From Halichondria panicea (lineage: Eukaryota; Porifera; Demospongiae; Suberitida; Halichondriidae), in contig NC_087377.1 of the NCBI RefSeq assembly GCF_963675165.1, positions 8,821,122-8,885,121 on the forward strand: a stretch of 64,000 nucleotides of DNA, given 5' to 3'. The notes under the pieces were generated by a model. It did not search any database. It was not told the origin of the DNA and saw only the letters and a list, made by a program, of their open reading frames with translations. This document shows, piece by piece, positions 3,071 to 55,560 of the stretch. The number at the start of each line of letters is the position of its first letter. The first letter of the stretch is position 1. Position numbers and translations under genes: made by a program.

Positions 3071-3357
3071 GTGACACTATAGTGTCGTCGAGCAATTAGT
3101 TCTATTCCGTATTCCAACACTTGTGCTGTATATGCTGCCCCAAGCTCCACTGAGTATATAGTTGATGAGCTGTCAGCCTGGTTTTTCATTATCGGCCAAT
3201 GTGAGCTGCATAATCCATTTCAGCCTGCTGTCAAGAAGGCCCATGTAAGTCCATGCACATTGATTTATACTTTAGCACTCTTCACAATCTTGCAGCTGTA
3301 GATCTGCAGAGATGAGTCATTATAATTTTATTACCGGATTTTCTGAATCTGAAGCTT

Positions 3358-3579
3358 TAGCCTCGAGACCAGCCTTTCGTATATGAAAGAACCTGGTCAA
3401 GTTCCAATGTGCAACTTGTTCAGCTGAGTCAGCGTTTTACAGTATCGTAATGAGTAATACACCTTGTGCGGGCAATTATCGGTCCAAAAAATTCCTGTAT
3501 TCTAATACACTAGAACGAGTGCTACATTGGAACTTGACCAGGCGTTCTTTCAGATAACAAACGGCTGGTCTCGAGGCTA
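3358..3579. mobile_element. TAG...CTA foldback element, 222 bp, 9-bp TSD
   Basis: The ends TAGCCTCGAGACCAGCC and GGCTGGTCTCGAGGCTA are inverted repeats that extend, with small gaps, for about 55 bp (AAGTTCCAATGT on both arms). The flanks CTGAAGCTT (3349-3357) and CTGAAGCTG (3580-3588) match at 8 of 9 bases. Same end motif and duplication length as the elements at 10543, 10629, 51252 and 54104. No coding capacity. Confidence 0.85.
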
Positions 3580-3885
3580 CTGAAGCTGGCCCACAGCAAA
3601 ATGTACCTATATCAACAACTGGAGAGTAGTAGATATATACACAGGCGCGCATGTTAGGCCACTAAACGACTAAAAGAGAAATACCGGAAGTGAAATTAAA
3701 TAATGGGCGTGGCAATAGGAGTGGCGCAGCGGGGTTCAATTTGCTAGCGGGTTCTGTACCGGCCAATAAATGCAGCCAACAGCCAGAGCCACAGCACTGC
3801 AGTGTGTGTCACTGTGTACTTTAATTGTCTATGCAATAAACCAACCTGAGTGTGAACACTGCTGCTGCTGATATCACTGAACTGA

Positions 3886-4575
3886 ATGCTATTCGGATGC
3901 ACTACCTTATATAGGGACACTACCATCACATTATCTCCGAGCACATCAATGGATGCAACATCACCTACCCACTATCTCTCCACAACTCTCAACTCCTCCT
4001 CAAACAGCGTCAACTATTCACTCCATTCCACGAAGTCAGGCATATTGTTTAATGCTAGGAGTGTTGCAAACAAACTACGAGATCTTCACGCAGGAGAAAA
4101 CATTGATATTATCGCTGTCACAGAAACACACAGATACAAAACTAATGGTCCCCAATCATTCTGTCTTCAGGAGAGAACTACGAGATCTTCACGCAGGAGA
4201 AAACATTGATATTATCGCTGTCACAGAAACACACAGATACAAAACTAATGGTCCCCAATCATTCTGTCTTCAGGAGAGACAGAAATTGGTAAGGGGGAGG
4301 GATTATAATATGCTTCTGGTTCGCAACAACATCCCTGCAACAAGGCTCCACGACCTTGAAACCGACTGTCAGAGTGAACTCCTATATATGGGTGGAAATA
4401 AGTCACCCTACACCATCAGCTAAAAGTGCTAGTGAGTCTTCTATCGACCTCCAAGCTCGTCCAACATCCACCTAACATTCCTCAGGAACTCTCTATCAAC
4501 GATTTTTTCATATTCAGAATCATGCCCATGCAGTGATCATTGGCGAAGACTTTAACATCCCGTCTATCAATTGGA
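3886..4575 (+). pseudogene. Non-LTR retrotransposon endonuclease (APE-type) fragment, 5' piece
   Basis: The plus frame contains NARSVANKLRDL and IDIIAVTETH, the typical N-terminal motifs of the exonuclease-endonuclease-phosphatase domain of CR1/L2/Jockey-like LINEs. Near 4533-4573 another frame gives VIIGEDFNIPSINW, the conserved GDFN motif. A 103-bp tandem duplication (4074-4279) is not a multiple of three and so shifts the frame. The domain is interrupted at 4606 by an inserted element and resumes at 6059 (see that entry). Dead copy. Confidence 0.75.
4074..4279. repeat. 103-bp exact tandem duplication inside LINE endonuclease
   Basis: 4074-4176 is repeated at 4177-4279, both beginning ACTACGAGATCTTCACGC and ending TTCAGGAGAG. 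By eye the copies are identical, so the duplication is young relative to the decay of the LINE. Confidence 0.9.
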
Positions 4576-4804
4576 GACTATACTTGCATCGAATCTATGT
4601 GACATACAGTGCACGTGCATCCAGTCTATATAGAGAGTACATATAAATTATATAGGATACCAAAATAGGTGAGTATAATTATAGTTGTATACTTATATAT
4701 CTGATCAACATTGGAACATTTCTAGAAATTGTGCTGATATAATTATATATATATATATATAATACCATTGTATATAGGTGAATGAATAAGCTACCATAAT
4801 AATT

Positions 4805-10542: not shown

Positions 10543-10602
10543 TAGCCTCGATTCAAGGCCGATTTTAAAATACGTATTTTAATCGGCCTGGAATCGAGGC
10601 TA
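10543..10602. mobile_element. TAG...CTA foldback element, 60 bp, 9-bp TSD
   Basis: A near-perfect palindrome: TAGCCTCGATTCAAGGCCG on one arm and CGGCCTGGAATCGAGGCTA on the other, meeting at TACGTA. The target duplication GCCTACACA is exact (10534-10542 and 10603-10611). A near-identical 58-bp sibling is at 51252-51309. Confidence 0.95.
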
Positions 10603-10628: not shown

Positions 10629-11296
10629 TAGCCTCGACCCCAGGCCGATCCGTCTCCAATTGAACGCTAGGTCGCCTACAGCAGGAAATACTTCCCAGAA
10701 GACACTTCTTTGGCAGTGGCAACCAAATCTTTGTCGATTCCTTTATTGCTACTGAGGATGGCAGCAGAAACACCTCTATTGTTTAGACTCCTGACCTGGT
10801 CAATCATGAGTCTCATGATGAGAGATACAAGGGGAGAGACAATTAACAAGAACAACACTTTTGTCAACAGGAGGAGCCTTGGTCCTACCTAGCTTGTAGT
10901 CCATTAAAAAGGGTAGCAACTGATATAGCAGAGAGACTTGCCATACCCCGTTGGGAACCAGATAAACACGTCCCTTCCCTCAAACAGGAGCTTGAGAGCC
11001 TGGGCCTGTTCTGCCATGAGAGTGAGGCCATCTTGCTTCAAACAAGACAACGCGTTGCATGCCATAGCTAGCTAGCTATAAATTGAGAACATGACACGGA
11101 GCTACATTACTGTAACTTTTACGGGAGTAAAATGCCTCTACGTACACCTTTAGTATTGCAGAAAAAAAGCAGGAAACAAAATGTAAAGAATCACTGCTTT
11201 TGTTTCCGGTTCCTGCCACGCCCAGATACAATCAATACCAGGCCGTATTTTTCAACTTCTTTCTATTAAAAAAAAATCGGCCTGGGACCGAGGCTA
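10629..11296. mobile_element. TAG...CTA foldback element, 668 bp, carrying a RecQ fragment
   Basis: Left end TAGCCTCGACCCCAGGCCGA, right end TCGGCCTGGGACCGAGGCTA. The 9-bp duplication GCTTTTGGT is exact (10620-10628 and 11297-11305). The interior holds minus-strand coding for the N-terminal lobe of a RecQ helicase (next entry) and a non-coding left part. It carries no transposase, so it must be mobilised from elsewhere. Confidence 0.9.
10676..11040 (-). pseudogene. RecQ-family helicase N-terminal fragment inside foldback element
   Basis: Read on the minus strand this segment gives LFEGRDVFIWFPTGYGKS, in which TGYGKS is a Walker A motif, followed after about 35 residues and a frame change by LLIVSPLVSL and DQVRSLNNRGVSAAIL, the motif Ia block of RecQ-type superfamily 2 helicases. 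The DEAH motif, later helicase motifs and the RQC region are absent. Frameshifts lie near 10850-10900. The fragment is bounded on both sides by the TAG...CTA ends and is therefore probably captured or retained transposon cargo rather than a host gene in place. Confidence 0.75.
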
Positions 11297-12913: not shown

Positions 12914-12999
12914 ACAAGACGTGCTGTAACGTTACAAGACGTGCTGTAATCGAGTGCGAGGCTCAAGGTCAAAAGGTGACTGGGTGTTCATTAATTAAA

Positions 13000-14695
13000 A
13001 TGGTTGATCAAAGAGCTGGAGCTGGAGATCGAGTGTGGGGATGGGAAACATTTCTCCAAGAAATGGAGACTTTCCTTACTACGGTAGATAGAGAAATCGA
13101 TTATACTCAGTCTACTAGTTATGCCCAGTTCGTTATTGAGAGGTTTGAGGTTTGTATACATGCTCTATCTTCCCTTCGTGTACAAATTGAAGATGATGGC
13201 GATGATGAGACGATTGAAGTTTGCACGGCATTGAAGGAAATAATGGACAGTTGTGTGTTGCTCAAGACAATGTGGTACACTCGACTTGATGAGTTGGATG
13301 CACACACAGACGGAGGCTACCAAGTTCCCCAGGTTGCTAGGAGAGTAGGACGTGGCCGTCCCCAGCTATTTATTTGTCAAGACCAGTTGGAATACCTATG
13401 TAGTTTAAATTTCACTTGGACTGAGATTAGTAAACTATTGGGTGTCTCTCGAATGACTATCTATAGAAGAAGAGGGGAGTTCGGCATTCTAGATGTTCAT
13501 AGTGCTGCAAGAAGTATAAGTGACAGTGATCTACGTACAAAGCTCCAACAGGTGCGTCGAGAAATGCCAAATATGGGAGAGACACTGGTGATTGGGCGAC
13601 TACGGTCATTGGGATATGCTGTCACTAGACAAAGGGTGCGTAATGCTATCCACGCAACCGATCCCCTGAATGCAGCTCTGAGATGGAGAGGAATCCTCAC
13701 TGCTCGGCGCCCTTACTCTGTTCCCTCGCCCAACTCTCTATGGCACATGGGTAAGTCATATATAGGTGTTGTGTGACCAGGTTTATGGTTAATGTGTGTC
13801 AATTAAGTTTTAGATAAAGGAGCCCAGATGTGTGTACATGCATGTATATAGGTTGGAGCCTTATTATTATAGTAGTAGCAAGACTTGTGTATACAATACA
13901 TGCATACTAATCATATCTTGTATTCGTACAGATGGCCACCACAAGCTTGTGAGATGGGGCATGGTAACGCACGGGGCTATTGACGGATATAGCAGACTCG
14001 TCGTGTTTCTTCGCTGTAGCAATAATAACACTGCCGAAACAGTTTATAATCTCTTCCTTTCAGCTGTCCAACGGTTTGGACTACCGTTAAGAATGCGATC
14101 TGACTACGGTGGTGAAAATTATCGTGTAGCAGCACATATGCTAGAGAGTAGAGGATATGACCGCAACAGCATGATAACTGGCAGTTCCGTGCACAACCAG
14201 CGGATTGAGCGCCTCTGGCGCGATATGCATCGTTGCGTAACAGTGATATTTTACAAGTTATTCTATTACCTAGAGCAACATGGTTACTTGGATCCTGATA
14301 ACATGTTTCATCGGTATTGTTTACAGTACGTCTATCTTCCACGTATCAACCAGTCACTGAAAGTATTTATGGAGGGTTGGAACTGTCATGGGGTTCGAAC
14401 GGAACACAATCTAACACCACATCAATTATTTGTGCGGGGAGCACTTCAAATGCAGAGAAGAGGACTTCAAGCCCTAGACTTTTTCGAACATATTGATGAA
14501 ATGTATGGTGTAGACGAAGAAATCAGTACGGGTGATGACGATTACACAGTTCGTATACCCCCAATTGGTCTTGCATTGTCTGATGAGAATATGGCTTTGT
14601 TGAAGGAAAGAGTAAATCCTCTGGCAGACAGCGATAATTTTGGGATAGAACTGTATGTTGAAACACTTACTTTTTTACGTACTTTGATTAACTGA
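13000..14695 (+). CDS. DDE integrase-core transposase, left copy (two exons: 13000-13750, 13932-14695)
   Basis: Predicted 504 residues, start MVDQRAGAG; an intron of 181 bp with GT-AG ends splits the codon for the first catalytic Asp. Residues about 1-120 are variable and partly helical. A helix-turn-helix follows (FTWTEISKLLGVSRMTIYRR), then the integrase core: D251 in DGHHKL, D308 in MRSDYGGEN and E343 in HNQRIERLW, giving DD35E-like spacing. This resembles the integrase core domain proteins (rve-like) that are abundant in sponges, cnidarians and fish. It would cut and join element ends in the nucleus. All catalytic residues and the frame are intact. It differs from the copy at 21424-23119 by about two residues. 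Convergent with the HECT-like gene. Exact transposon superfamily unknown. Confidence 0.85.
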
Positions 14696-14767
14696 GATTT
14701 GTTAATGAATGTGCAGTGCGTAATGCCAGTAATAATTACAAATTTATATCCAAGTTGAATGATGGTA

Positions 14768-14915
14768 CAGTGCATGGAACCCCTCTATAACGGACACCTT
14801 TAATTGGAGAACAAAAAGTTTTGGCCGTTGTTAAGGGGTTGTTTTGTATGCAAACTTTTGGGACCTGGGTGTCTGGCCGTTATGTCGCAGTTGGCCGTTA
14901 AGAGGGGTTCCACTG
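14768..14915. mobile_element. CAGTG...CACTG MITE between transposase and HECT genes, left copy
   Basis: Ends CAGTGCATGGAACCCCTCT and AGAGGGGTTCCACTG, TA flanks at 14766-14767 and 14916-14917. Internal phrases GGCCGTT repeat in inverted orientation. Present at the matching place in the right copy (21204-21351), so it was inserted before the duplication. Tc1/mariner-like by its ends. Confidence 0.8.
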
Positions 14916-15636
14916 TATATAATTTTTATCATTTATGTTAATGAATGTCTGTCAGATGCAGGTACACATAATTATATAGACACACTATAAAGAGTATGAC
15001 TAATATTATAGTAGTACTGCCAATACACAATGTTAGGACGTATATTATTATTATACTGGAATAGGTTGCAAGTACGTAGCCACTGTATATACACTTGGTA
15101 GATATTGTCATATAGTTTTACAGATGCTGTTTGTTAGTCTGAGTCAAATTTCTCATTGGCTTGTGGCACCGTCTTCAATTATACCTGAATCCGGATAGAA
15201 AAACATTTGCAATGTGAAAAATTGCTACAATCCTATGTACAACCTACTGATTCATATAGCATTTGAACGTGGAACATTTGTGGAACAATCATAATTATTA
15301 CATGCATGCTTGCAACATGATAATCATAAGCTCATGCAGATAACTATATAATTATATCTTCACTGTGACAAATGCAAGCACATGCATGTACTACTTGCAT
15401 GCATGTATAGAAGGTCTTGCTAATTTTGCATTCATAAGTTATAGGTGTTATATATAACAATTCTCCTGGGACCAAAGCTTGCATGCTTTTTATTGGACCT
15501 ATATACCTACATCACTCAGTAATACAAAAATCACAGCGATGAATGCTTTACAATACAATAACATCGTCATAAAGGTAATAATTATGGCCAAAAAACATTG
15601 ACAGACATGCATGCAGTGTTATCAATATTGCAAACG

Positions 15637-15913
15637 TCAATAGCTGTCCATTCTCCACAAGTACTCGCTTGACAAACAAGCTCGGAACTCAGAAACAAAC
15701 ACTTGGTATGAAGGGTATGTTGAGGATAGAATCAGGGATGGTGCACAGGTGAGGGCAATGGGTCTACGTGAAGAACCGGTAAGAGCATTAAATTCTAGAG
15801 ATATTTTCGAAGAGGAACACACCGAGCTGCCAGTAACGAAGCGCAGAAAAGTTCGCAATTCATCCAGTCCCATATTTCCTATAAATTGACGCAGATAACC
15901 TAAAACCCTATTC
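15637..15913 (-). pseudogene. HECT-like C-lobe fragment, left copy
   Basis: The minus frame encodes the same last ~90 residues as the gene at 19271-20164 (LGYLRQFIGNMGLDELRTFL to the stop after WRMDSY), with no amino-acid difference seen. It ends abruptly at about 15913 where CCCTAT continues into unrelated sequence instead of the rest of the HECT frame. It keeps the candidate catalytic Cys (ALTCAPSL) but lacks the N-lobe, so it cannot be functional alone. Confidence 0.75.
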
Positions 15914-19270: not shown

Positions 19271-20164
19271 TTGTCGAGGGACATGTATTCAGCATTTTAT
19301 GAATCTGCCTATGAGCGTCTCTTTGATGGTAGCTCACTCTTGTGTCCTGTAGTCCACCCTGAAATGGATAAAGCGTGTCTCTCCACCTTTGGTCTTGTAC
19401 TTTCACATTCGTACATAATGTCAGGAATTCTTCCGATTCGGATTGCCTTCCCTTGTTTAGTTCAATCTCTGCTAGGAACTTCCGTCTCATTAAGTGATAC
19501 TGTTCTTTTGGAGTCATTCATCGATAGTGTAAGTATTCACGAGGCAGGTATTCTTAAGGAAGCTATGGCTGTGGTTGGACAGCAAGTTCCTGTGTTTTCT
19601 TCTGAAATCAAATGCGAATTAATATCACTGTTCAGTCGATACAATAGCAGACAAGTGCCTACCCCAAATAGTTTAAAGCAGATGGTGGTAAACTTGGCTA
19701 GGTACGAGTTTGTTTCAAAGCCTGCTGCTGCTTTGTCTCTTATCCATTGCGGAGTGCCTGAGCAACACCAAGTGTTCTGGGATAACATGATGGTTGATGG
19801 TCTTCGAATGCTTTACTGGGCACTGAGTGTGTCTTCTGCCATGGTGTTGAAGATGCTCGAGGAAGCTGAAGGTGGTGATCAATCCCAAGATAGGGTTTTA
19901 GGTTATCTGCGTCAATTTATAGGAAATATGGGACTGGATGAATTGCGAACTTTTCTGCGCTTCGTTACTGGCAGCTCGGTGTGTTCCTCCTCAAAAATAT
20001 CTCTTGAATTTAACGCTCTTACGGGTTCTTCACGTAGACCCATTGCCCTCACCTGTGCACCATCCCTGATTCTATCCTCAACATACCCTTCATACCAAGT
20101 GTTTGTTTCTGAGTTCCGAGCTTGTTTGTCAAGCGAGTACTTATGGAGAATGGACAGCTATTGA
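19271..20164 (+). CDS. HECT-type E3 ubiquitin-ligase-like protein of the transposon, right copy (3' exon)
   Basis: An open frame of 297 codons that continues upstream of the first Met to a possible AG acceptor near 19256, so the true start probably lies in an earlier exon. The sequence reads as a HECT domain. An N-lobe-like part comes first (MYSAFYESAYERLFDG, LSHSYIMSGILPIRIAFP, LESFIDSVSIHE), then a C-lobe (LDELRTFLRFVTGSS) and RRPIALTCAPSLILSSTYPS with a Cys at the place of the catalytic thioester Cys. HECT ligases accept ubiquitin on this Cys and pass it to a substrate Lys. It lies tail-to-tail with the transposase gene, about 1.26 kb apart, and the pair is duplicated as a unit, so I infer it is transposon cargo. 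The hallmark FNRL-type context is weak, so activity is uncertain. Confidence 0.7.
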   Translation: MSRDMYSAFYESAYERLFDGSSLLCPVVHPEMDKACLSTFGLVLSHSYIMSGILPIRIAFPCLVQSLLGTSVSLSDTVLLESFIDSVSIHEAGILKEAMAVVGQQVPVFSSEIKCELISLFSRYNSRQVPTPNSLKQMVVNLARYEFVSKPAAALSLIHCGVPEQHQVFWDNMMVDGLRMLYWALSVSSAMVLKMLEEAEGGDQSQDRVLGYLRQFIGNMGLDELRTFLRFVTGSSVCSSSKISLEFNALTGSSRRPIALTCAPSLILSSTYPSYQVFVSEFRACLSSEYLWRMDSY

Positions 20165-20174
20165 CGTTTGCAAT

Positions 20175-20318
20175 ATTGATAACACTGCATGCATGTCTGT
20201 CAATGTTTTTTGGCCATAATTATTACCTTTATGACGATGTTATATTATTGATAACACTGCATGCATGTCTGTCAATGTTTTTTGGCCATAATTATTACCT
20301 TTATGACGATGTTATTGT
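20175..20318. repeat. 72-bp tandem duplication after the HECT gene
   Basis: ATTGATAACACTGCATGCAT begins copies at 20175 and 20247. The left transposon copy has this sequence once (15560-15635), so the duplication happened after the two copies separated. Confidence 0.85.
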
Positions 20319-20730
20319 ATTGTAAAGCATTCATCGCTGTGATTTTTGTATTACTGAGTGATGTAGGTATATAGGTACAATAAAAAGCATGCAAACTTTG
20401 GAGAATTGTTATATATAACACCTATAACTTATGAATGCAAAATTAGCAAGACCTTCTATACATGCATGTGCTTGCATTTGTCACAGTGAAGATATAATTA
20501 TATAGTTATCTGCATGAGCTTAACATGATTATCATGTTGCAAGCATGCATGTAATAATTATGATTGTTCCACAAATGTTCCACGTTCAAATGCTATATGG
20601 TTGTACATAGGATTGTAGCAATTTTTCACATTGCAAATGTTTTTCTATCCGGATTCAGGTATAATTGAAGACGGTGCCACAAGCCAATGAGAAATTTGAC
20701 TCAGACTAACAAACAGCATCTGTAAAACTA

Positions 20731-21000
20731 CCGTATAGCGGGTATATTTCGAGGGTATAAATTTTCGCGGATAGACCTCTACAAAGGATTTCGCGGATTT
20801 TATTTTCGTGGTCTGAGTTCCAGCCTTTTGGCGCATGCGCACATCAACATGCAGCTGTACCTCCACACCGTGGTCAATAATACTGAACACGCCTACATTT
20901 TAATAAGATGTAAATTTTCGTGGGTAAAAATTTTCGCGGTACAGGCTCAATCCGCGAAAACCGCGAACATTTATACCCTCGAAATATACCCGCTATACGG
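20731..21000. mobile_element. CCGTATAGCGGGTA MITE, 270 bp, with empty site in the left copy
   Basis: Ends CCGTATAGCGGGTATATTTC and GAAATATACCCGCTATACGG, with TA on both sides. In the left transposon copy the same position (15111-15114) reads TATA without the element, so the insertion duplicated TA and is younger than the duplication. Confidence 0.95.
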
Positions 21001-21203
21001 TATATGACAATATCTACCAAGTGTATATACAGTGGCTACGTACTTGCAACCTATTCCAGTATAATAATAATAATTATACGTCCTAACATTGTGTATTGGC
21101 AGTACTACTATAATATTAGTCATACTCTTTATAGTGTGTCTATATAATTATGTGTACCTGCATCTGACAGACATTCATTAACATAAATGATAAAAATTAT
21201 ATA

Positions 21204-21351
21204 CAGTGGAACCCCTCTTAACGGCCAACTGCGACATAACGGCCAGACACCCAGGTCCCAAAAGTTTGCATACAAAACAACCCCTTAACAACGGCCAAAA
21301 CTTTTTGTTCTCCAATTAAAGGTGTCCGTTATAGAGGGGTTCCATGCACTG
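21204..21351. mobile_element. CAGTG...CACTG MITE, right copy
   Basis: Inverted counterpart of 14768-14915 with TA flanks (21202-21203, 21352-21353). Same position relative to the transposase stop codon. Confidence 0.8.
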
Positions 21352-21423
21352 TACCATCATTCAACTTGGATATAAATTTGTAATTATTACTGGCATTACG
21401 CACTGCACATTCATTAACAAATC

Positions 21424-23119
21424 TCAGTTAATCAAAGTACGTAAAAAAGTAAGTGTTTCAACATACAGTTCTATCCCAAAATTATCGCTGTCTGCCAGAG
21501 GATTTACTCTTTCCTTCAACAAAGCCATATTCTCATCAGACAATGCAAGACCAATTGGGGGTATACGAACTGTGTAATCGTCATCACCCGTACTGATTTC
21601 TTCGTCTACACCATACATTTCATCAATATGTTCGAAAAAGTCTAGGGCTTGAAGTCCTCTTCTCTGCATTTGAAGTGCTCCCCGCACAAATAATTGATGT
21701 GGTGTTAGATTGTGTTCCGTTCGAACCCCATGACAGTTCCAACCCTCCATAAATACTTTCAGTGACTGGTTGATACGTGGAAGATAGACGTACTGTAAAC
21801 AATACCGATGAAACATGTTATCAGGATCCAAGTAACCATGTTGCTCTAGGTAATAGAATAACTTGTAAAATATCACTGTTACGCAACGATGCATATCGCG
21901 CCAGAGGCGCTCAATCCGCTGGTTGTGCACGGAACTGCCAGTTATCATGCTGTTGCGGTCATATCCTCTACTCTCTAGCATATGTGCTGCTACACGATAA
22001 TTTTCACCACCGTAGTCAGATCGCATTCTTGACGGTAGTCCAAACCGTTGGACAGCTGAAAGGAAGAGATTATAAACTGTTTCGGCAGTGTTATTATTGC
22101 TACAGCGAAGAAACACGACGAGTCTGCTATATCCGTCAATAGCCCCGTGCGTTACCATGCCCCATCTCACAAGCTTGTGGTGGCCATCTGTACGAATACA
22201 AGATATGATTAGTATGCATGTATTGTATACACAAGTCTTGCTACTACTATAATAATAAGGTTCCAACCTATATACATGCATGTACACACATCTGGGCTCC
22301 TTTATCTAAAACTTAATTGACACACATTAACCATAAACCTGGTCACACAACACCTATATATGACTTACCCATGTGCCATAGAGAGTTGGGCGAGGGAACA
22401 GAGTAAGGGCGCCGAGCAGTGAGGATTCCTCTCCATCTCAGAGCTGCATTCAGGGGATCGGTTGCGTGGATAGCATTACGCACCCTTTGTCTAGTGACAG
22501 CATATCCCAATGACCGTAGTCGCCCAATCACCAGTGTCTCTCCCATATTTGGCATTTCTCGACGCACCTGTTGGAGCTTTGTACGTAGATCACTGTCACT
22601 TATACTTCTTGCAGCACTATGAACATCTAGAATGCCGAACTCCCCTCTTCTTCTATAGATAGTCATTCGAGAGACACCCAATAGTTTACTAATCTCAGTC
22701 CAAGTGAAATTTAAACTACATAGGTATTCCAACTGGTCTTGACAAATAAATAGCTGGGGACGGCCACGTCCTACTCTCCTAGCAACCTGGGGAACTTGGT
22801 AGCCTCCGTCTGTGTGTGCATCCAACTCATCAAGTCGAGTGTACCACATTGTCTTGAGCAACACACAACTGTCCATTATTTCCTTCAATGCCGTGCAAAC
22901 TTCAATCGTCTCATCATCGCCATCATCTTCAATTTGTACACGAAGGGAAGATAGAGCATGTATACAAACCTCAAACCTCTCAATAACGAACTGGGCATAA
23001 CTAGTAGACTGAGTATAATCGATTTCTCTATCTACCGTAGTAAGGAAAGTCCCCATTTCTTGGAGAAATGTTTCCCATCCCCACACTCGATCTCCAGCTC
23101 CAGCTCTTTGATCAACCAT
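21424..23119 (-). CDS. DDE integrase-core transposase, right copy (exons 23119-22369 and 22187-21424)
   Basis: Same 504-residue, two-exon gene as at 13000-14695, on the opposite strand. The catalytic residues D251, D308 and E343 and the helix-turn-helix are conserved. Seen differences are Gly for Glu early (QEMGTFL) and Ser for Leu before the second Asp (GLPSRMRS). The frame stays open upstream of the chosen Met to 23221; I prefer MVDQRAG because the upstream part overlaps the subterminal repeats and reads as low-quality sequence. Being intact, this copy could supply transposase to non-autonomous relatives. Confidence 0.85.
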
Positions 23120-23314
23120 TTTAATTAATGAACACCCAGTCACCTTTTGACCTTGAGCCTCGCACTCGATTACAGCACGTCTTGTAACGTTACAGCACGT
23201 CTTGTAACGATTACAGCACATCTTGCATGCATGACGTTTTCCCTTACTTTATGACGTCCTATAGCGCTATTTATTTTTGTTACACTTGGCGTGCCATAGG
23301 ACCTAGGAGTCAAG

Positions 23315-40129: not shown

Positions 40130-41267
40130 TTATATACCAGCCGAAGCTGTTCGAGATCTCGTCATCGGTCCAGTATGGGAATCGGGTACAACTTGAGGTA
40201 TAGTGCGGTGTTGCTGGTCACTAGCAATCTGGGCGTACTTGCGTGGAGTAGATCCTCGCCACGACTGATCAGGAAGTTCTTCATAACATTTTCGAACACG
40301 GTTTAGGGAAACAAAAATTGATTGAGACTTGGGTTCGTCTACAAGTCGAACTTCTGCATTCGTCAGTGTCAAACTCAAGACACGAAACGGTCCATGGAAT
40401 GGTCTTGCAAACTTCCAAGTTTTGCCTTGAACTTCGCTTGGCATGTGAACCATGACGCGTTGACCAACTTCGAGGTTAGGTTCTTTGGCTGACCTGTCAT
40501 ACATACTTTTGATGTTTCTGTTTGTCTGTAATGCACTCCTGGGCTGTTTGCCATGCACTGGACAGTCCTGCTACCAATTCTGTTTTATAATCGTCTAGAT
40601 CTACCACATAAGGTGAGCGCTCGCGCGAGAGAGCTTCTAGCACTGGCAACGTGGGGTCTCTACCGTAAAGCAAAAAGAAAGGCGACTCCCGAGTAGACTC
40701 TTGTACCGAAACACGGTAAGCATACAAAACATACGACAAATGCCGATCCCAGTCATGACCAAAGCGCTCAACTGTCTTTGCCAACATCTGAATGACATTG
40801 CTGTTAAACCGCTCACACAAGCCATTAGTTTGCGGATGGTACCCAGATGTGTTGAGTTTTTGCACATCAAACAATTTGCATACCTCAGCTACCAGCTCCG
40901 AAAGAAAGTTAGCACCACGATCAGAAAGAAGCTCGTGTGGTGCTCCATGCCGACAGACAACATACTCCACAAACATCCTCGCAACAGTTTCAGCTTTCTG
41001 ATCTGGAAGAGCAACAACTTCCACCCATTTGGTAAGATAATCAATGAATACCTATGCATATTGATTTCCATCAAGAGTTAAAGGCAACTGCAAAACATCA
41101 ACCCCAACTTTCAAAAACGGTCCTCCAACAGTAATAGGTTGTAGTGGTGGCTTGATAGACCGACTCTGACCCTTCCTAGAAGCACAAACCAAACATGACC
41201 GACAATAGTGCCCTGGCCACCTCATAGATTCTCTTTTCCGCAAAGTGCCCTGAAAATCTACCATCAT
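40130..41267 (-). pseudogene. Gypsy-type integrase, broken
   Basis: Minus-strand frames carry the zinc-finger end CRSCLVCASRKG (about 41190), core motifs LLSDRGANFLSEL and the third acidic residue in NGLCERFNSNV, and a C-terminal region with RVMVHMPSE and GPFRVLSL. Three breaks are visible: a frameshift before the zinc finger (about 41215), an in-frame TAG at about 41055, and a 4-bp TATG repeat near 40500 that shifts the frame before the C-terminal domain. The integrase is therefore inactive. Confidence 0.85.
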
Positions 41268-42930
41268 GTGCCTCCTGAATTAAACCCTCTCGTCTCTCCT
41301 GTGGAACAACTAGACACCACCTGCCAGGAGTATTAGCACACTCATGATAAAGAAGGCCATCTGTCAAATCAAAAGCCTCACTGTTAATAACCACCTTCCT
41401 CGCCTCTGCATCATCACCTGGCAACGTACCATCTTCAAGATAAGCAATAATTGGCTTGAACTGAGAATCTTTACGCTGTTCGAGTCTGACCCCCTCACTC
41501 TCTGCAACTACACATGATACCGATGCCACTGGATTCCTAGACAAAGCGTCTGCACAGCTATTTGTTTTCCCTGGCCGATATTTGATATCAAGGTCCATCT
41601 CCTGTATAATCAATGCCCAACGGGCCAATTTAGCAGAAGGGTTGCTAGTACTGAAAAGAGAAGTACAAGCTGCATGATCCGTGAGTACAAGACAATGATG
41701 TCCCAACAAGTACGACCGATAGTACTTCACTGCCCAAACAATTGCTAACGTTTCAAGCTCTGTGATGTGGTAATTCCGCTCATGCTTGTGAAGTGTCCGA
41801 GATGCATATGCCACTGGGTGTACCTGTACCTGACCCTTCTCGTCCTCCTGTGCCAAAACCGCACCTAACCCTGCCAAGCTAGCATCAGTTTCCAAAACAA
41901 AGGTATGTCCAGGGCCAAACTGAGGGTAGGCTAGAACTGGGGCAGTACAAAGCAAGTTCTTGAGCTTATCAAAAGCTCCCTGACAATGTGTTGTCCACTC
42001 AAACAAAACACCCTTCTTGGTGAGTGCAGTTAACGGTGACGAAACTGCTGCAAAATTCTTAATGAAGCGTCGGTAGTAAGAAGCTAACCCCAAAAACTGT
42101 CGAAGCGTGAGAACATCAGTTGGTACCGGAAAGTGCTGAACCTTCTCGACTTTGGACACATCTGGAGCAATCCCCTGCCTAGAGATAGTGTGACCCAAAT
42201 ACTTCACCTGTTCCTGCAAAAAGACACATTTTCCAACTTTCAGCTTCAAGTTAGCTGCCCGCAACCGCTCAAAAACAACCTGCAAATGCTCAAGATGCTC
42301 TTCAAATGTCCGTGAACACACCAAGATGTCGTCGATATAGACAAAACAACTCTTCCCATCAATCCCTCCAAGAACCGTCTGCATCAAACGCTGAAAGGTA
42401 GAAGGAGCGTTACATAAACCAAACGGCATCCGATTAAACTCAAAGAGTCCACAATGCGTGGTAAACGCTGTCTTTTCCTTGGCAGATGAGTCAAGTGGAA
42501 TCTGCCAAAACCCTGAAGAAAGATCAAGAGTGGAGAAAAATCTACCCCTACCTAGGGTGTCCAAGATATCTTCTATGCGAGGAATGGGGTAGACGTCCTT
42601 TTTAGTGATTGCATTTAACCTCCTAAAGTCTACACAAAACCGTGTTGTTCCATCCTTCTTGGGGACCAATACGATTGGACTAGCCCAAGGACTCACAGAA
42701 GGTAAGACCACACCCTTGGTCTCCATGTCGGCAACCATCCGTGCTATTCTTTCCCTATGCACAAAAGGAGTACGTCGGGGATACTGCTTGATTGGTGCAT
42801 GGTCCCCTGTGTCGATCTTGTGCTGAGCGACTGCAGTGCATCCCAACTCATCATCAGATAAAGCAAAGACATCTCTATAGGCAGCCACCAATGCCTTCAA
42901 CTTGTCATTGTTCCGTGGAGCTACGCTCAC
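41176..42930 (-). pseudogene. Gypsy-type reverse transcriptase and RNase H
   Basis: A 584-codon frame. RT: FCVDFRRLNAITKKDVYPIP, FFSTLDLSSGFWQI, MPFGLCNAPSTFQ and the catalytic FVYIDDILV. Tether and RNase H: FVLETDASLAGLGAVLAQ, YASRTLHKHERNY, ELETLAIVWA, LTDHAACTSL, then LDIKYRPGKTN and CADALSR. The frame is open through both domains, so this is the best-preserved part. It is disconnected from protease upstream (frame change near 42930) and integrase downstream. It would copy the element RNA into DNA. The layout PR-RT-RH-IN is that of Ty3/gypsy elements. Confidence 0.9.
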
Positions 42931-43545
42931 AGGTCACTGTATGATATCCAAGAGCTTCGTTCTCCTGTCACCACAGCAACGTGAGCAGCGTCCATACATG
43001 TTCCCTCACCCTCAGGGAGTCCAACAACATCGGCCAACTCGTGTTCAGCACTCTCCAAAAGAAGTTCAGCTTGACCTAGCAACGTTCCCTCCTCAAGATA
43101 CACATCTCTCTGGTGATAGTTCATTACTGGGATCAACACCTTTCCTTGACTGTTTACACTGACGAGAGACTCCAAGGCACCAAGTCCATGTGTCTCCAAA
43201 GAACATGGATCAGGCTCAAAAACAACACACTCACCCTCTTGCAACTCTATATCAACTGCTGCCTCAACAAACGACCTAGGGATAGCCTAATCAAATTCAC
43301 GGAAGCTGTAGTGACTGGGACTGAACCTGCCATCCTAAGAGGTATACCATTGCGATCAAGAAACAAAAGTCCCAGAGCTGGTGCTGCATTCATCCCTATC
43401 AAACAATCCTGACTGCTGTTTGGCTGCACAAAGAAAACAGTGGGCACCGATGTTCCACCTGCCTCTACTTGCAACGTCACTTGAGCTGTGACATTCAGCT
43501 CGTGTTGACCTGCCACTCCATCCTTACCATACAAACGTACTGTTG
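42927..43545 (-). pseudogene. Gypsy-type protease region, 5'-truncated
   Basis: Two minus-strand frames: one with CLIGMNAAPALGL and NVTAQVTLQVEAGG, resembling the C-terminal half of a retropepsin-like domain, and the other with LESLVSVNSQGKVLIPV and MNYHQRDVYLEEGTLLGQ, the spacer seen before RT in such elements. The DTG/DSG active site is not visible. gag and the 5' LTR are absent; element homology stops at about 43550. Confidence 0.7.
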
Positions 43546-47989: not shown

Positions 47990-48918
47990 CATGATCTCAG
48001 CTGCTGCACACCCCTCAATTTAGCGGATTATATTGCAAAAGAGTTTGTTAAGGGCCGTACTGTTCCTTGGCACTCATTACCGGCTCAAGTCAGTCGATTT
48101 GGAGTAATTCCGAAAAAGCATCAGCCAGGCGAATGGCAGTTGGTTGTTGATCTCTCAGCACCAGAGGGCTAAATGACGGTATTCAAAAACAACTTTGCTC
48201 ACGGGGTATCTACACGGCTGTAGGGGTTTATCCAAGCCTCATAAATGACGGTATTCAAAAACAACTTGCTCACGGGGTATCTACACGGCTGTAGGGGTTT
48301 GTTTATCCAAGCCTCATCACCTAAACAAGGCAGTTCGATCCGATTTAGCTTGGTGGTTAGCATTTATGGAGAAATGGAATGGCATCACCCTGTCTCTACC
48401 TGATGCACAACAATTCTGTCGGCGATTGTTACGTCGGATGCTTCAGGTTCCTGGGGCTGTGGTGCATATACCAGGCATCACTGGTTTCAGATCCCATGGG
48501 CTCTATCTATATGAAAGTTATGCCGCTGAAAATATCGCAACCAAAGAAATGCTCCCCATCATCATTGCAGCAGCTTTGTGGGGTAGTTGTTGGCAATAAT
48601 TATGGCAGTAGTTGCAGCACTTTCAAAACGGTTTTGCAGGGACAGACAGATGATGCATTTGCTCCGTTGTTTGCATTTTTCGAAACTTACTACAGGTTCA
48701 ATCTTATTTCTGAACATATTTGTGGTATTGATAATTTAACTGATGATCTGTCATGTGATAATCTCTCTGCTTTCTTACAGAAGTCCAACCTCTCGGCAAC
48801 AGCGGTATCAGCAATACCTTTCGAGCTGTTAGAAATGTTGATGGGCTCCAGGCCAGATTGGATATCACAACATTGGATCGAGGCGGATGTTCAACGCTAC
48901 TTTGAACAAGGTTTAGCT
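47990..48918 (+). pseudogene. DIRS-type RT and RNase H remnant
   Basis: VSRFGVIPKKHQPGEWQLVV then DLSAPEG is the N-terminal RT motif of DIRS elements. A 72-bp tandem duplication follows (48171-48312). The palm motifs are deleted. From 48330 the frames give SDLAWWLAFMEKWNG, ATKEMLPIIIAAALWG and then LSCDNLSAFLQK and FEQGLA, the RNase H end and the linker to the tyrosine recombinase. The linker is cut at codon GLA by the insertions at 48919 and 50141 and continues at 53595 with the recombinase. Confidence 0.75.
48171..48312. repeat. 72-bp tandem duplication in the DIRS RT
   Basis: AAATGACGGTATTCAAAAAC starts copies at 48171 and 48243, both running to AAGCCTCAT. The second copy has small length changes. 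Confidence 0.85.
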
Positions 48919-49149
48919 TAGTCTCGCGAGCAGCCGTCAAAGGGGGAAGGACGTCTGGTCGAAGTGGCCGGTTTTCCATGGGCCAATGTTGTCGCACCAA
49001 TCGGATTGCCAGAATACTAATAATTAAACATTGTGGGCGGGGTTGCAATGTGCTCTGACGTACCGTAAAAAAGGAAACACTTTATCATTATTGTTGCCAT
49101 GCATAGATGGAAGTATCTATTATAAACTGCTGCAATTCGTGTCGCTACT

Positions 49150-49425
49150 ATAAAGCTAGGATATAAGGAGCTGAAACCCAGTCAAGAGCTAGCTGTAAAA
49201 AGCTTAGTAGATGGTAGAGACGTGTTTGTCAGCTTACCTACTGGTAGTGGGAAATCTCTAGTGTCCTACCTGGAGTAATCGATGAGATCAGAAAATCACC
49301 TGGCTCTTCATTAGTCATTGTAGTGAGCCCTCTTGTGGCACTGATGAAAGATCAAGTGAAAGCCATGACTGACAGAGGTACTAGTGCAGTTTATGTGGGA
49401 TCCCCTACAATGTTTTCTGACGACG
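49150..49425 (+). pseudogene. RecQ-family helicase N-terminal fragment inside element X
   Basis: Plus-strand reading gives GYKELKPSQELAVKSLVDGR, then DVFVSLPTGSGKS (Walker A), and after a stop and frame change SSLVIVVSPLVALMKDQV and KAMTDRGTSAVYVG (motif Ia block). The order and spacing match the N-terminal lobe of RecQ helicases. The sequence clearly differs from the fragment at 10676-11040, so two separate RecQ pieces are carried by two members of the same element family. DEAH and C-terminal motifs are missing. Confidence 0.75.
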
Positions 49426-49527
49426 TTTGACGTTTTATGACAATTTTTATAATGATATTCATACATAATCACAAACATTCCTGAGCCCATGGAAAACCGG
49501 CCACTTCGACCAGACGTCCTTCCCCCT

Positions 49528-50101
49528 TAGACTCGCCAGCCAGCCCTTCCTCAGGGTAAGGACTGGTGGATTGCCTATCTGAGAGTTGTGCCGTTACCTG
49601 AATCTGGTAATGACCAATCAGAGTGCAGTATCAATGTCATGTGACATTCTTACGCCCACAGTATTGCTTAGTTAATTCTTTGTGGTAGAATGCATGATAA
49701 TAACAAAATAATGGATGAGCAAGACTGTGCTAGTGCAAGATTAAGCGACCAAGCAGAGCTTATCAATCAAGCTGCAATTGAGACAAATCCTCCAGTGACT
49801 TTAGTATGTAAATGAATTGCACCACTTGTCTTACATTGGAGAAAATCTTTCCAGTCTGGGGATGGAAAGGGCTTGACAGTAGCCTTCTACCACCAGTCTC
49901 AATGTTTCTCTGCCACAAACTAAGCAAGGGGAGCTTATTTGTAATTGTGTAGCTATTTGCAACCCACGCATATCAGACATTACAAACCACATGATGATGT
50001 CATACATGATGTCATGCAACTCATTAAAATTCCACCGGCACAACTCTCAGATAGCAATCCACCAGTCCCTTACCCCGAGGAAGGGCTGGCTGGCGAGTCT
50101 A
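49528..50101. mobile_element. TAG...CTA foldback element Y, 574 bp, nested in X
   Basis: Ends TAGACTCGCCAGCCAGCCC and GGGCTGGCTGGCGAGTCTA. Exact 9-bp duplication CTTCCCCCT (49519-49527, 50102-50110). The target lies in X's right arm, which reads continuously when Y is removed. Arms extend through GCAATCCACCAGTC. A stretch around 49700-49815 could encode DEQDCASARLSDQAELINQA, unrecognised. Confidence 0.9.
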
Positions 50102-50157
50102 CTTCCCCCTTTGACAGCTGCTCGCAAGACTAGGTTTAGCCATAGATAGTAAAGGAA

Positions 50158-51189
50158 AGGGTTGTTATAAAACAGGGAATGAGAAATGAGGAAATGAGGA
50201 AATGAGGAAATAAGAAATAGGAAATGAGGAAATGAAGAAATAAGAAATAGAAATGAGCTGTTAGGCAGAGCATATCTATGGGCAGAGCAAGTCTGAAGAC
50301 GAAGCTAACATCTACTGAGCTACAGGTACGTACCTCCTGGTGACAAGTCTCCTGGTGCTCTGCCACCATACAGAACTTATGTTCCTCTGGTACACGGTGT
50401 GACACTCCCTACCTCTATCTACTTGTGTGCCATGTACGACTGGCATGGTTCAGACATCAGATCTACCTACGTAACGGTACTTACATGTACTGTCCTACAG
50501 TCCCACAGTCTCAAACATTTACCTATGCGTGGCTATACTGGCAATACATTCACTGATTTCACAATCCGGTGGGCAAGTGATAGTCAATGGACTGGACTCA
50601 ATGTCAACATCTACATATAAGTAACAGCAAAGAAACCTCCAAAACTGTTTGTCAAACCAAGCAAATTCTAATGATCTGCCAGTCCTGTCGTAAAGCTGCA
50701 GGAAGTAATGACATTAGTACACTGTACTGGTATCATATCCAATCTCGCTACAGGGTGAAGAAAGCAATTCCCATTACCATTCTCACAAGCAATGCCTAGT
50801 GAAAGCTGATGCTACCTTTAAGGAAGAAAGCTCACTGTGCCATCTGAATCGATGGTAAAATTTAATTCTTACAATGTGTCCGACAACCTGTACTGTGTGG
50901 AGGTGCCACTATAATTATATATTTGATAACTAAATACTTAGTCACCTACTAGCTTCTTGGCTGATATCAGTCATTACTTTTGTGCAATTATTATTATAAT
51001 AATGTCATAATTATTGTGATGAAAATTAATGCCATGGTGATGATCGTAACCATGCATAAATATAATAATTATTATTATTATTCTATTTCTTATTTCTTCA
51101 TTTCCTCATTTCCTATTTCTTATATCCTCATTTCCTCATTTCTTATTTCTCATTTCCTCATTTCTCATTCCCTGTTTTATAACAACTCT
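50158..51189. mobile_element. Element Z1, 1.03 kb, purine-rich GAAATGAG arms
   Basis: Arms: GTTGTTATAAAACAGGGAATG followed by repeated GAAATGAGGAAATGAGG on the left, and the mirrored CATTTCCTCATTTC and ATTCCCTGTTTTATAACAAC on the right. AAAGGAA flanks both sides (50151-50157, 51190-51196). The interior 50390-50800 holds open frames (THSVY-free; GVTLPTSIYLCAMYDWHGSD, FTDFTIRWASDSQWTGLN) that look like exon pieces of an unrecognised protein. Confidence 0.75.
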
Positions 51190-51251
51190 AAAGGAAAGGG
51201 ATTGGAAACACATCACGTGCACCAATGTTTTCAACAGAGCTTGTGTGTCAC

Positions 51252-51309
51252 TAGCCTCGATTCAAGGCCGATTAAAATACGTATTTTAATCGGCCTGGAA
51301 TCGAGGCTA
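51252..51309. mobile_element. TAG...CTA foldback element, 58 bp, 9-bp TSD
   Basis: Two 29-base arms (TAGCCTCGATTCAAGGCCG and its mirror) meet at TACGTA. Exact TSD GTGTGTCAC at 51243-51251 and 51310-51318. Almost identical to the 60-bp element at 10543. 51320-51860 holds no gene. Confidence 0.95.
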
Positions 51310-51862
51310 GTGTGTCACCATCCTACTTACGATTTTTAATGTTATTCATTGCTAGTCAAAAGGTCATTTGCTGTTTTTAAAGCTATATTTTGGGGCCTCA
51401 AGATCATTCTTTCAGCGTTCAAGCCAATCAAGTGAGCTATTTGGGTACATAAAAACATAAGCTTTCCAATGGTAGTGGTACCATAAAGTTTGGATGTATA
51501 TTGTACCCAAAAAAGTGTTTTTCTACCTTGAAAGTTAGGGTGAGTTGTTTGCAGGCGCTTTATTACTCAATAGGAGGTAACAAGGATTGATTGCACGAAA
51601 GAATCTTTTTCTGGCATGATTGAGCTATAAGGTGGTATGTGATATAAGAGGCATGTTACATGGATTAGTGAGTTATACTTGGTTTTAATCAAAATTATTC
51701 TCGTTGTAGTGACAATTTTGTGGGCACCTTTTCTCAATAATGCTTTGGCAGATTTTTTTTATTTTATTCGTATGTTGTAGTACTCATGCTAGTAAATGAG
51801 GTGCAAATGATTTTTTGGAGTGATCAAGACACCCACTATTGATTTACAACAACTTTTACGTA

Positions 51863-52579
51863 CAGTGCATCCAGTCTAAAGAGTAGAATACCAAAAATGT
51901 GTGAGTAGTTGTACTTAAATGTAAATATGTTATGATTGGAACATTTCTAAGAAAATCTGCTGATATCATTGTGTAGGCGAATGAATAAGCTACAACATAT
52001 CCAAAATTGTTTCCATGACAACGTAAGGTGGTGGGTTTGTGGTGATTAATAAAACAGTACCCAATTGTTATAGTGGGTAATCGGTTAGGGAGAGAAAAGG
52101 CCAACGGTTTCCGGCTAAGGTTTGGAACTTTGTCACAACATCTATAGATAGTTTGGCTATCTTATGAAAGATTCGATGTTACTTAAATACCTACACATCC
52201 TTCGCAGTGCTCAAAATTGCTAGTTTTTAGTGCCGTTTTGGTTAGGGAGAGATTTGAAGAAAATCTCACGGCTAAGGTCTAAAAATTACACGGAGTACTT
52301 GAATAAATTGTCTAACTTTTGATAAGAAAAATTTTTCCAAAATTTCTTTAGTTCCAGAGATAATTGATGTTACGTACATTTTTTTACGATCACCCCCATT
52401 ATCTCCTAAAATTATTTCCCACTACAACAACTTTTGGGGAAATATTTTTGAATCATGTTGTAGCTTATTCTTTTACCTATACAATGGTATCAGCACAATT
52501 TCTTAGAAATGTTCCAATCTTGAGCTACATCTAAGTACAACTACTCACCAATTTTCTACTCTCTAGACTGGATGCACTG
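51863..52579. mobile_element. Family A MITE, copy 2 (intact), 717 bp, TA flanks
   Basis: Ends CAGTGCATCCAGTCTAAAG and CTAGACTGGATGCACTG, with TA at 51861-51862 and 52580-52581. The core (52085-52440) matches 5520-5870 in reverse orientation, including AACTATCTATAGATGTTGTG. This copy shows the pre-insertion structure of the one at 4607-6058. Confidence 0.9.
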
Positions 52580-52969
52580 TACATGTTTTTTAATGTGATT
52601 TATATAATTGTCTTTTTAGGATGTGAAGCAAAAAGCTCGTAAGAAAAAATTCAAGCCATCCTCGATCTCAACCAGATCCTACCCTCTCTCAACAAAACAA
52701 AAGCATCTAGGAAGATATAAATTCAACCATAAGACACTTAGTAACCTCACCTGTCACCTCATCATTAAGTATACATAATTATATACATGTTTATTTTTGC
52801 TTGTGTGTATACACTGTAGTTTTGCAACCACTTACTTTAAACATTATATAATATAATTTATTGACATCCCTTAGAGTACAGTATTACACTTATGATTAGT
52901 GTCAAGACTCACAAAGGGAGTTTAGTAAGATAATAAATACATTGTTGTCGTGCTTATATTATGTATATA

Positions 52970-53346
52970 CCGTATATCTTCTAATTTATCGGACAGCAAA
53001 AAATAATTATTTTGGAAATTGTCCGGGTATAATTGGAACAGATTTTTATAGAGCATGCAAAGTGTCCGGAATAATTAGAACAAGCAAGCAGCTGCATGCG
53101 AGCTAGCTAAGTTTAATAGAACAAGGTACAACTGAATAGTTGCAATAGCTATCTAAAACTAGCTCTCAAAGCTATCTAACTGCAGCACTCTTAAGTCTAA
53201 TACTTGCCGTCTATGAATGAAACTCAACTTTTCAAGGGTATTGTCCGGATATTTAGAACAAATGTAATATTAAAGCACTGGATTGTCCGTTGTATTAGAA
53301 CAATGAAAATTGCCCAAAAGAGTCCGATAAATTAGAAGATATACGG
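52970..53346. mobile_element. Foldback family B copy, 377 bp, TA flanks
   Basis: CCGTATATCTTCTAATTTAT and ATAAATTAGAAGATATACGG are exact inverted ends with TA at 52968-52969 and 53347-53348. This is the best-preserved family B copy. Confidence 0.95.
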
Positions 53347-53594
53347 TAACTAAAATAGATCTAGCTTTTTTTTACTGATATGGATACCATCATGAAGCCC
53401 TTATCCTTTAACTACACTGTCCACAGTATGAGCTTAGACATGCTTAGGGCTCCAGCTTGAGATACTCTCATAATTATACCATGTGGCTTCGATTTATGCC
53501 GCAATGGAGGGCCTGTAATCAAGGCTACAATCCGTAAGTAGGAGTGTGACATATGACGTAATGCGTTTCCAATCCCTTTCCTTTACTATCTATG

Positions 53595-54103
53595 GTTTAG
53601 CTCGGTCCACCCAAAAAACTTACAAAAGTGGAATTAATAAGTTTTGTGAGTTTTGTGCTACGTTACGTTTTCCCCCTCAGTTTGTGTCGCTCCCTATTAC
53701 TCAATCTATACTTTGGTTATATGTAGCTCGCAGTGGTCTATCATATTCCACTATCAATTCGTACCTCTCGGCATTGCATCACCTGCATATCCTTCATAAC
53801 TTGCCCGAACTTCAGCAAGTGGCTTGGCAAAAATTCATGCTATAGTCAAGAGAGGCATTAGAAAAGAGAAAGCAATCTCTCACCCCCAAAAATTTAGGCT
53901 GCCTATTACCCCAGACATTTTGAGGCAGATAAAAGCACTATGATCTGTTGAACCAATACAACCAGATGCAGTCATGCTTTGCAGGGCTGCGAGCTGTTGG
54001 TGCTTTTTCGGTTTCTTCAGGTTAGGAGAAATTACTTGCTTGTCCGCCAATGCAGTCAATCTTCACAAGGACCTGCTCCTTGCTGATCTGGCAGTCGATA
54101 GCC
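53595..54103 (+). pseudogene. DIRS-type tyrosine recombinase, N-terminal and first catalytic part
   Basis: Begins with the linker GLA then RSTQKTYKSGINKFCEFC, a SAM-like DNA-binding domain (LSYSTINSYLSALHHLHIL), and then MLCRAASCWCFFGFFRLGE, whose RLGE holds the first catalytic Arg. A frameshift near 53835 and a TGA near 53942 disable it. It is cut at 54103 by a 1,080-bp element and continues at 55184. The recombinase would integrate the circular DIRS cDNA by strand exchange. Confidence 0.8.
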
Positions 54104-55183
54104 TAGCCTCGATCCCAGGCCGAGTTTTCGCTTTTATAACGGTTAGGCGAACAACTGGGCCTGGTACTAGTTGTCTGCGCATGCGTCAGTCGTTCGTCAG
54201 ATTCTGACGAATGGATATTCTCGTTCACTTTTGTGACATTTATATTCGTGTACTATCGTGTACTAGAAGTCAGTTCCCGTTTTATCATTATTGGAATCGA
54301 TTGGAATGGCTCTTAGCTGAAGCTTCTCTCTTCTCTGAAGCTTATTCTGAAGACTGAACAACAAGGGAAGAGGTATAAAGCTTTGTCAAGCTTGTTAAGG
54401 TCAGATATTTTTGTGTGGGCCCTATGGCCGGCTATGCTATCAAGTCTTGTTCATGTTTGGCAAGAATGTAGGTAGACTATAGTTTCATCATTAATATGGT
54501 GGATCAAGTGAAGAGTGTGAGCTAGAGAACTTGGTGCTGCCATCATCAGCTCGTCGACAATGACACTATAACCGAGAAATTTAATATGTATAGATCTACA
54601 CGTATTTAAAATGTCTACTTCTCTGCAATGGCTAATATCCAGCTATCCCAACAGTGCTCCTCTTGGCTATACTAACGGACGAGACTGGACAGTTTGAGGT
54701 AAGGGTTTAACCGTCTTTGGTTTCTTTTAATATTGTCCTATACTCACAGACACAGGACTGGAGTATGACCTGCTCATTCGAGCGTTGCTGGGTAGCTCAG
54801 AGACATCAAGAGAATCTACATTTTCTCAAGCAATGAGTTACGAGTTGGGGCCTAGAATCAGAGAAGTCCAGCAGCCTGCTGAATCTTTTTGAAACGTAAT
54901 TTGAAGGCATTCAATCATCCTGAAGTTGCCCTGGGTCACTGTAATTGTGCTGCAGCACAACTGGCAACTCCCCAGGCCTTTGTGAAGCAGCTCCCTATGT
55001 GCATCTTTTGTGTACTCACTCTGTGCATTTTCTGTGTAGAAATTTCTATTATTGATTTATTAAATATTTTTGCCGACCACAAATATACAATGAAAATTTG
55101 ACGCATGCGCAGACAACTAGTACCAGGCCCAGTTGTTCGCCTAACCGTTATAAAAGCGAAAACTCGGCCTGGGATCGAGGCTA
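54104..55183. mobile_element. TAG...CTA foldback element, 1,080 bp, 9-bp TSD, in the recombinase
   Basis: About 100-bp arms: TAGCCTCGATCCCAGGCCGA, then TTTTCGCTTTTATAACGG and CTAGTTGTCTGCGCATGCG, mirrored at 55083-55183 with no mismatch noticed. Exact duplication TCGATAGCC (54095-54103, 55184-55192). The interior has exon-like plus-strand pieces (GLEYDLLIRALLGSSETSRE, MSYELGPRIREVQQP at about 54750-54885) preceded by an acceptor-like CACAG, perhaps captured host exons. No RecQ motif here. Confidence 0.95.
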
Positions 55184-55560
55184 TCGATAGCCATGCTGCA
55201 TCTCTGTCACCTTGAAGCAGTCCAAAACAGACCAATTCCGGAGAGGTGCGCGATTTATGCCTTGTAGCAGCCCTTTTACAATACATCGCGATTCGAGGTC
55301 CACATTCAGGACCCTTGTTTATTTACGCCGACGGGAAGTTCCTGACAAAACATAGCTTTGTTCCACGCATCAGGGAAGCCTTATCGGCTCTCGGTTTGAA
55401 TAATACTCACTACGCTGGTCACAGTTTTCATATCAGGGCAGCTTCAACCGCTGCCAAAGCGAATATTGAAAATTCAATGATAAAAACGTTAGGACAATGG
55501 GAAAGCAGTGCCTTCCTGACGTACATTCCTAGAGGGGCAATCAAGCGCTAAACCAGCACA
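55184..55560 (+). pseudogene. DIRS-type tyrosine recombinase, C-terminal catalytic part
   Basis: Frame with LFIYADGKFLTKHSFVPRIR, then HSFHIRAASTAA (catalytic H-x-x-R), LGQWESSAFLTYIP (nucleophile Tyr in TYIP) and a stop. With 53595-54103 it makes a complete set of recombinase motifs (R...HxxR...Y) once the insert is ignored. Confidence 0.8.

Follow-up and report, generated by a model that had tools for sequence, protein, structure and literature searches.

Helicase-encoding transposons of probable AcademH type and their short remnants in the genome of the sponge Halichondria panicea

A 64,000-nucleotide stretch of Halichondria panicea DNA (contig NC_087377.1, positions 8,821,122 to 8,885,121; hereafter the window), which is part of the searched genome set of 131,455,214 bases in 39 contigs, contains seven mobile elements with the common ends TAGNCTCG...CGAGNCTA, which are very probably remnants of DNA transposons of the AcademH kind. 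Their positions, strands and target site duplications in the window are as follows.

3358-3579, plus strand: element 3358, 222 bp, non-autonomous; duplication CTGAAGCTT/CTGAAGCTG, 8/9
10543-10602, plus strand: element 10543, 60-bp end-only near-palindrome; duplication GCCTACACA, 9/9
10629-11296, minus strand: element 10629, 668 bp, with an N-terminal helicase piece; duplication GCTTTTGGT, 9/9
48919-50132, plus strand: element X, 631 bp when the nested insert is not counted, with a RecQ-type helicase piece
49528-50101, plus strand: element 49528, 574 bp, TAGACTCG subgroup; duplication CTTCCCCCT, 9/9
51252-51309, plus strand: element 51252, 58-bp end-only near-palindrome; duplication GTGTGTCAC, 9/9
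54104-55183, plus strand: element 54104, 1,080 bp; duplication TCGATAGCC, 9/9

Element 49528 is nested within the right arm of X, the ends of which were read in locus L011. X is flanked by GGTTTAGCT on one side and directly adjoined by GGTTTAGCC on the other (8/9), and its duplication becomes 9/9 when the neighboring insert at about 50142-53593 (ends ATAGATAGTAAAGG...CCTTTACTATCTAT) is set aside, because GGTTTAGCT comes after that insert. The insert itself is flanked by GGTTTAGCC and GGTTTAGCT; its ends, ATAGATAGTAAAGGAAAGGG, are inverted, and it also has inverted stretches rich in GAAATGAGG. Terminal repeats are perfect over 85 bp in 54104 and extend over 66 bp in 49528 (96% identity), 65 bp in X (97%), 64/67 bp in 3358 (85%), and 21 bp in 10629 (90%). 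An earlier sequence-only reading of the window had described seven elements with shared ends and 9-bp duplications, ranging from near-palindromes to elements with coding pieces, as one mobile group, and this description holds. Its size range of 58 bp to 1.2 kb is correct for the window and too narrow for the group, which has members of 5,349 bp and more and a smallest pair of 43 bp (duplication 8/9). For a further right end at 55634, the 9- or 10-bp flank was sought within 50001-55640, where no candidate adjoined a left end.

The octamer TAGNCTCG occurs 10,276 + 10,350 times in the genome, compared with 5,377 + 5,623 times for the reversed pattern, implying that single ends can be due to chance. 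When the genome was searched with the 20-bp end TAGCCTCGATCCCAGGCCGA allowing at most one mismatch, as the sequence-only reading had proposed, 3,210 matches (1,616 + 1,594) were found, whereas the reversed control gave none (0 + 0). Duplications were examined at lengths of 4-13 bp in 36 distinct end pairs from the collected loci and the window (36-2500 bp, ends matching at no fewer than 16 of 20 positions); these loci are a non-random sample, since many surround helicase matches or lie close to where contig C1 begins, and the two ends of some pairs may belong to different elements. The duplication was exact over 9 bp in 16 pairs, over 10 bp in three, and over 8 bp in one (a 294-bp pair in locus L008), and no exact duplication of 4-7 or 11-13 bp was observed. 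When matches of at least 8/9 or at least 9/10 were accepted, 23 of the 36 pairs passed, whereas flanks cross-paired between different pairs reached these levels in only 7/1,260 and 4/1,260 cases, respectively.

A full-length member of the group with a putative transposase gene, which the sequence-only reading had suggested looking for, was also identified. Six places in the genome share the same DUF6589 score, and at the first three listed below the ends TAGCCTCGAGACCAGCCGTTCGTT delimit elements of 5,349 bp that contain a DUF6589 match and a convergent RecQ-type helicase match.

C1:1329568-1334916: full-length copy, exact 9-bp duplication
C17:2205672-2211020: full-length copy, exact 9-bp duplication, 69-bp perfect terminal repeat
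C8:974724-980072: full-length copy, exact 9-bp duplication
C10:1593011-1598359 and C10:1620706-1626054: full-length copies of 5,349 bp each, without duplications of their own
C1:10683027: sixth full-length copy, with about 0.23 kb extra; the stretch read ends about 1 base before its second end

The duplications of the first three copies are TCTAGTGCT, CTATGATAT, and TCCACAAAC. When pieces longer than 1 kb are compared with the first C1 copy, the other five show 99.8-99.9% identity, and the 483-bp end pieces are identical to it in four of the five and 98.5% identical in one; the transposons appear to have been active recently. The two C10 copies form an inverted pair about 22 kb apart, and the flank of the second, TGGTTCTAT, is found turned round beside the first, which suggests that recombination between them flipped the intervening DNA. 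The left flank of the first copy, for which no partner was found, is not accounted for by such a flip.

The proteins of related copies were scanned against Pfam (E-value threshold of 0.01) using 10 proteins or pieces from loci L039, L041, L042, and L043. Nine of them matched DUF6589, zf-AD, or helicase domains and one matched nothing; DUF6589 (E = 1.2e-29 and 1.9e-11), zf-AD (3.3e-7, in L042), DEAD, Helicase_C, and RecQ_Zn_bind all scored above their cut-offs. A profile built from six helicase pieces, including that of the 5,349-bp family, matched WRN, RecQ1, BLM, and bacterial RecQ in PDB and, more weakly, RNA helicases. For DUF6589, which we take to be the Academ transposase, the genome yields 92 matches, and no match occurs in any of 14 control genomes. 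In the DUF6589 alignment, VGDN-DK and GD-LT are each conserved in 4/4 covering pieces (of which L039 and L040 are near-duplicates), as is EH within a DL-MEH/DL-NEH stretch in 4/4 covering sequences; the conserved acidic residues may form a catalytic triad.

The helicase piece of X, used as a genome query, gave 127 matches, one of them within 10629-11296 on the minus strand. In loci L033 and L034 the helicase matches fall within elements 2,060 and 1,451 bp long, each bounded by an exact 9-bp duplication. Of five 10-kb stretches surrounding further matches, those of L039, L040, and L042 contain pieces of the second protein and a convergent helicase near such ends. By comparing 38 of the 92 DUF6589 matches (those of higher score that extend into the C-terminal half of the profile) with 76 of the 127 helicase matches, we found a helicase downstream, on the opposite strand and within 5.1 kb, in 27 of the 38, whereas random placement would put a helicase within 6 kb of DUF6589 in 0.7%. 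This count leaves out 51 helicase matches (for the most part those in the window and copies carrying in-frame stops) as well as weaker or N-terminal-only DUF6589 matches, a number of which likewise have a helicase match nearby. This arrangement implies that the helicase is a resident gene rather than a captured one. DUF6589 also occurs in open frames of 1,617-1,732 residues at C3:3629098, C9:1650827, and C14:4797543, two of which have no helicase entered in the count within 6 kb, while the only one near the third is 4.5 kb away on the same strand; these are possibly another type of transposon.

Four of the window elements could be traced to longer relatives. Positions 1-77 and 102-222 of 3358 are 88% and 89% identical to the two termini of the 5,349-bp family, and by this comparison 3358 is an internal-deletion derivative of that family. 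Judging from their alignments, the sources of 10629, X, and 54104 are sister families. The helicase piece of 10629 (minus strand, about 10757-11023, with stops; match C1:8831878-8832144) is 79-81% identical to the helicase start of the L042, L033, and L034 group, and X, whose helicase piece (about 49129-49400) is split over two frames, aligns with the helicase end in L009 at 92% identity across 477 columns. Full-length copies of 54104 in the collected loci are 97-99% identical in some cases and 88-89% in others; its pieces match the helicase-side end at 97% in L040 and 89% in L039 and, more weakly (66%), the transposase side of L039, and it is probably a deletion derivative of the L039/L040 family. 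No longer relative of 49528 was found among the collected loci. Because the same N-terminal helicase piece occurs in longer relatives, the coding pieces in X and 10629 belong to the transposon's own helicase, and the proposal that they were captured is not supported. Coding pieces in such remnants can thus be the transposon's own genes instead of captured host genes.

Small elements with duplications in the collected loci measure 43 and 53 bp (8/9), 58, 60, 67, 68, and 100 bp (9/9), and 103 bp (10/10). Half of these eight are palindromic over at least 93% of their length in an ungapped reading, and the other four less so. By eye, the 68-bp element is the outer X-type end repeated head to head and the 100-bp element likewise the outer 54104-type end, and no long parent was found for the 58-bp element. 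The 30-bp core of the latter occurs at 136 places with at most one mismatch (a palindrome being counted once per strand; control 0), of which the window's copies were examined for duplications, whereas the cores of three other palindromes occur at 3, 4, and 2 places with up to two mismatches. The 58-bp palindrome is therefore the only one shown to have spread; palindromes arose more than once, and one of them spread. The 58-bp family suggests how little end DNA such a transposase needs. One doubtful idea is that a process specific to these transposons repeatedly reduces them to minimal palindromes consisting of the ends only. Helicase unwinding, single-strand foldback, and symmetric loss of loop and inner stem would leave about 29 bp per end; if so, transposition would need no more than about 29 bp on either side.

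Considering the features above, we assign the elements to AcademH-kind DNA transposons and their non-autonomous remnants with a probability of roughly 0.84, a likeness drawn from published descriptions of the helicase and the duplication length. According to PMC10045372, AcademH generates duplications of 9 or 10 bp and AcademX of 3 or 4 bp, a difference linked there to the presence of a helicase or a nuclease. Both AcademH features are found here, namely duplications of 9 or 10 bp and a helicase inside elements delimited by the ends and duplications. A full-length element of about 5.3 kb, starting with TAG and ending with CTA, carries two convergent genes, one for a DUF6589 protein (with a zf-AD finger in one subfamily), which is probably a DDE transposase and its catalytic component, and the other for a RecQ-type helicase that may aid transposition. 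The transposase would recognize the terminal 20-30 bp and excise the element, so that movement would proceed by excision rather than copying. Insertion would occur through staggered cuts of 9 bp, sometimes 10 bp, the repair of which would yield the duplications. The window elements, having lost most or all of their interior, would move with proteins supplied by full-length copies.

Several observations weigh against this assignment. The kinship of the transposase to Academ is presumed; none of the papers examined names DUF6589, and its profile found nothing in PDB by sequence at E-values up to 1. In 13 of the 36 end pairs the flanks reach neither 8/9 over 9 bp nor 9/10 over 10 bp, and these 13 include the exact 8-bp case. 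For 49528, 10543, and 51252, the ends and the duplication are the only ties to the other elements. Two of the six full-length copies (both on C10) lack matching flanks of their own, and duplications are counted in three of six, the flank of the sixth copy (C1:10683027) lying outside the stretch read. In all six copies the DUF6589 match contains one in-frame TAG (an intron or a broken frame), and hence none of them is shown to be intact. Finally, 9 of the 38 DUF6589 matches have no helicase entered in the count within 6 kb and two have one on the same strand.

Among other explanations, the one that survives best, albeit unlikely, is that the elements are KolobokH-like or other helicase-bearing non-Academ transposons with 9-bp duplications by chance, or members of a superfamily without a name. 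Some Kolobok lineages (Kolobok-1_CCri and KolobokH) carry a RecQ helicase, which one of them encodes on the complementary strand (PMC9587614), and membership of Academ is argued here from features. However, Kolobok is described as having 4-bp TTAA duplications and RR...YY ends, and KolobokH as reported only from fungi (PMC9587614), whereas the ends here are TAG...CTA, the exact duplications (16 of 9 bp, three of 10 bp, and one of 8 bp) vary in sequence, and 0/36 pairs have an exact 4-bp duplication.

It is very unlikely that the elements are Mutator-like (of the MuDR, Foldback, or Rehavkus type) with a captured host RecQ helicase gene. Foldback, Rehavkus, and MuDR elements have 9-bp duplications and long inverted ends, which had led the sequence-only reading to lean toward Mutator, and the lengths here fall within the 4-10 bp given for IS256/MuDR-type elements (PMC10045372). 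The C/DxxH signature, common to MuDR, hAT, P, Kolobok, and Dada (PMC9587614), is readable in only one DUF6589 sequence (L074, as CDLH) of the four aligned, the remaining three lacking it at the corresponding position. A second histidine motif is ADWH or EDWH in 3/3; this is a weak test with so few sequences. Moreover, the Pfam scan, in which L040 and the 5,349-bp family were left out, revealed no Mutator domain among its 10 proteins or pieces, the helicase lies downstream of DUF6589 and convergent to it in 27 of 38 cases, and the 5,349-bp copies carry DUF6589 together with these very ends. Since a helicase is encoded and duplications of 9 or 10 bp are present, the elements are better placed in AcademH than in Mutator, and that leaning is not supported. 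Chance or an assembly artefact has negligible probability: the reversed control contains roughly half as many copies of the bare octamer, but the 20-bp end is absent from it, and exact 9- or 10-bp duplications in 19/36 pairs far exceed the cross-paired flanks, even with one mismatch allowed.

Several other features were observed in the window, which has no Rfam match at gathering scores. A large inverted repeat (12914-15911 and 19890-23205) has 2.2-kb arms at 99.7% identity, continuing at 93-98%; the arms carry the same open frames, the left being an integrase-core gene (Pfam rva_4, E = 1e-75), and the right arm has coding for a HECT domain at its inner end. Minus-strand retrotransposon coding at 41176-42933 and 40497-41051 (reverse transcriptase, RNase H, and integrase core) is presumably Gypsy-like. 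A decayed gene at 48050-48918, 53594-54103, and 55184-55560, interrupted by X, its neighbor, and 54104, resembles what we assume to be a DIRS-like tyrosine recombinase; the piece scanned (48361-48921) had no Pfam match.

AcademH has been reported from animals and fungi, as stated in the title of Kojima 2020 (Mob DNA 11:15; cited in PMC10045372 and PMC10799480), and a literature search for sponge foldback elements with terminal inverted repeats and 9-bp duplications returned nothing on the subject by title. We regard the families described here as presumably new and their kind as already known. With so many transposons that carry a helicase gathered in a single genome, full-length copies that are almost identical, and ends numbering in the thousands, AcademH-type transposition would become testable. 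Like AcademH as described, these families encode a helicase and have duplications of 9 or 10 bp. KolobokH and Kolobok-1_CCri are likewise DDE transposons with a RecQ helicase but differ in their TTAA duplications, and Foldback, Rehavkus, and MuDR elements share the long inverted ends and 9-bp duplications, whereas a Mutator domain was found in 0/10 proteins here. With regard to size and abundance, the Academ elements of bivalves have a mean length of 5,565 bp (PMC10294476), compared with 5,349 bp for the full-length family here, and fungal AcademH is described as low-copy (PMC10799480), in contrast to the 3,210 matches in this sponge genome for one end type alone.

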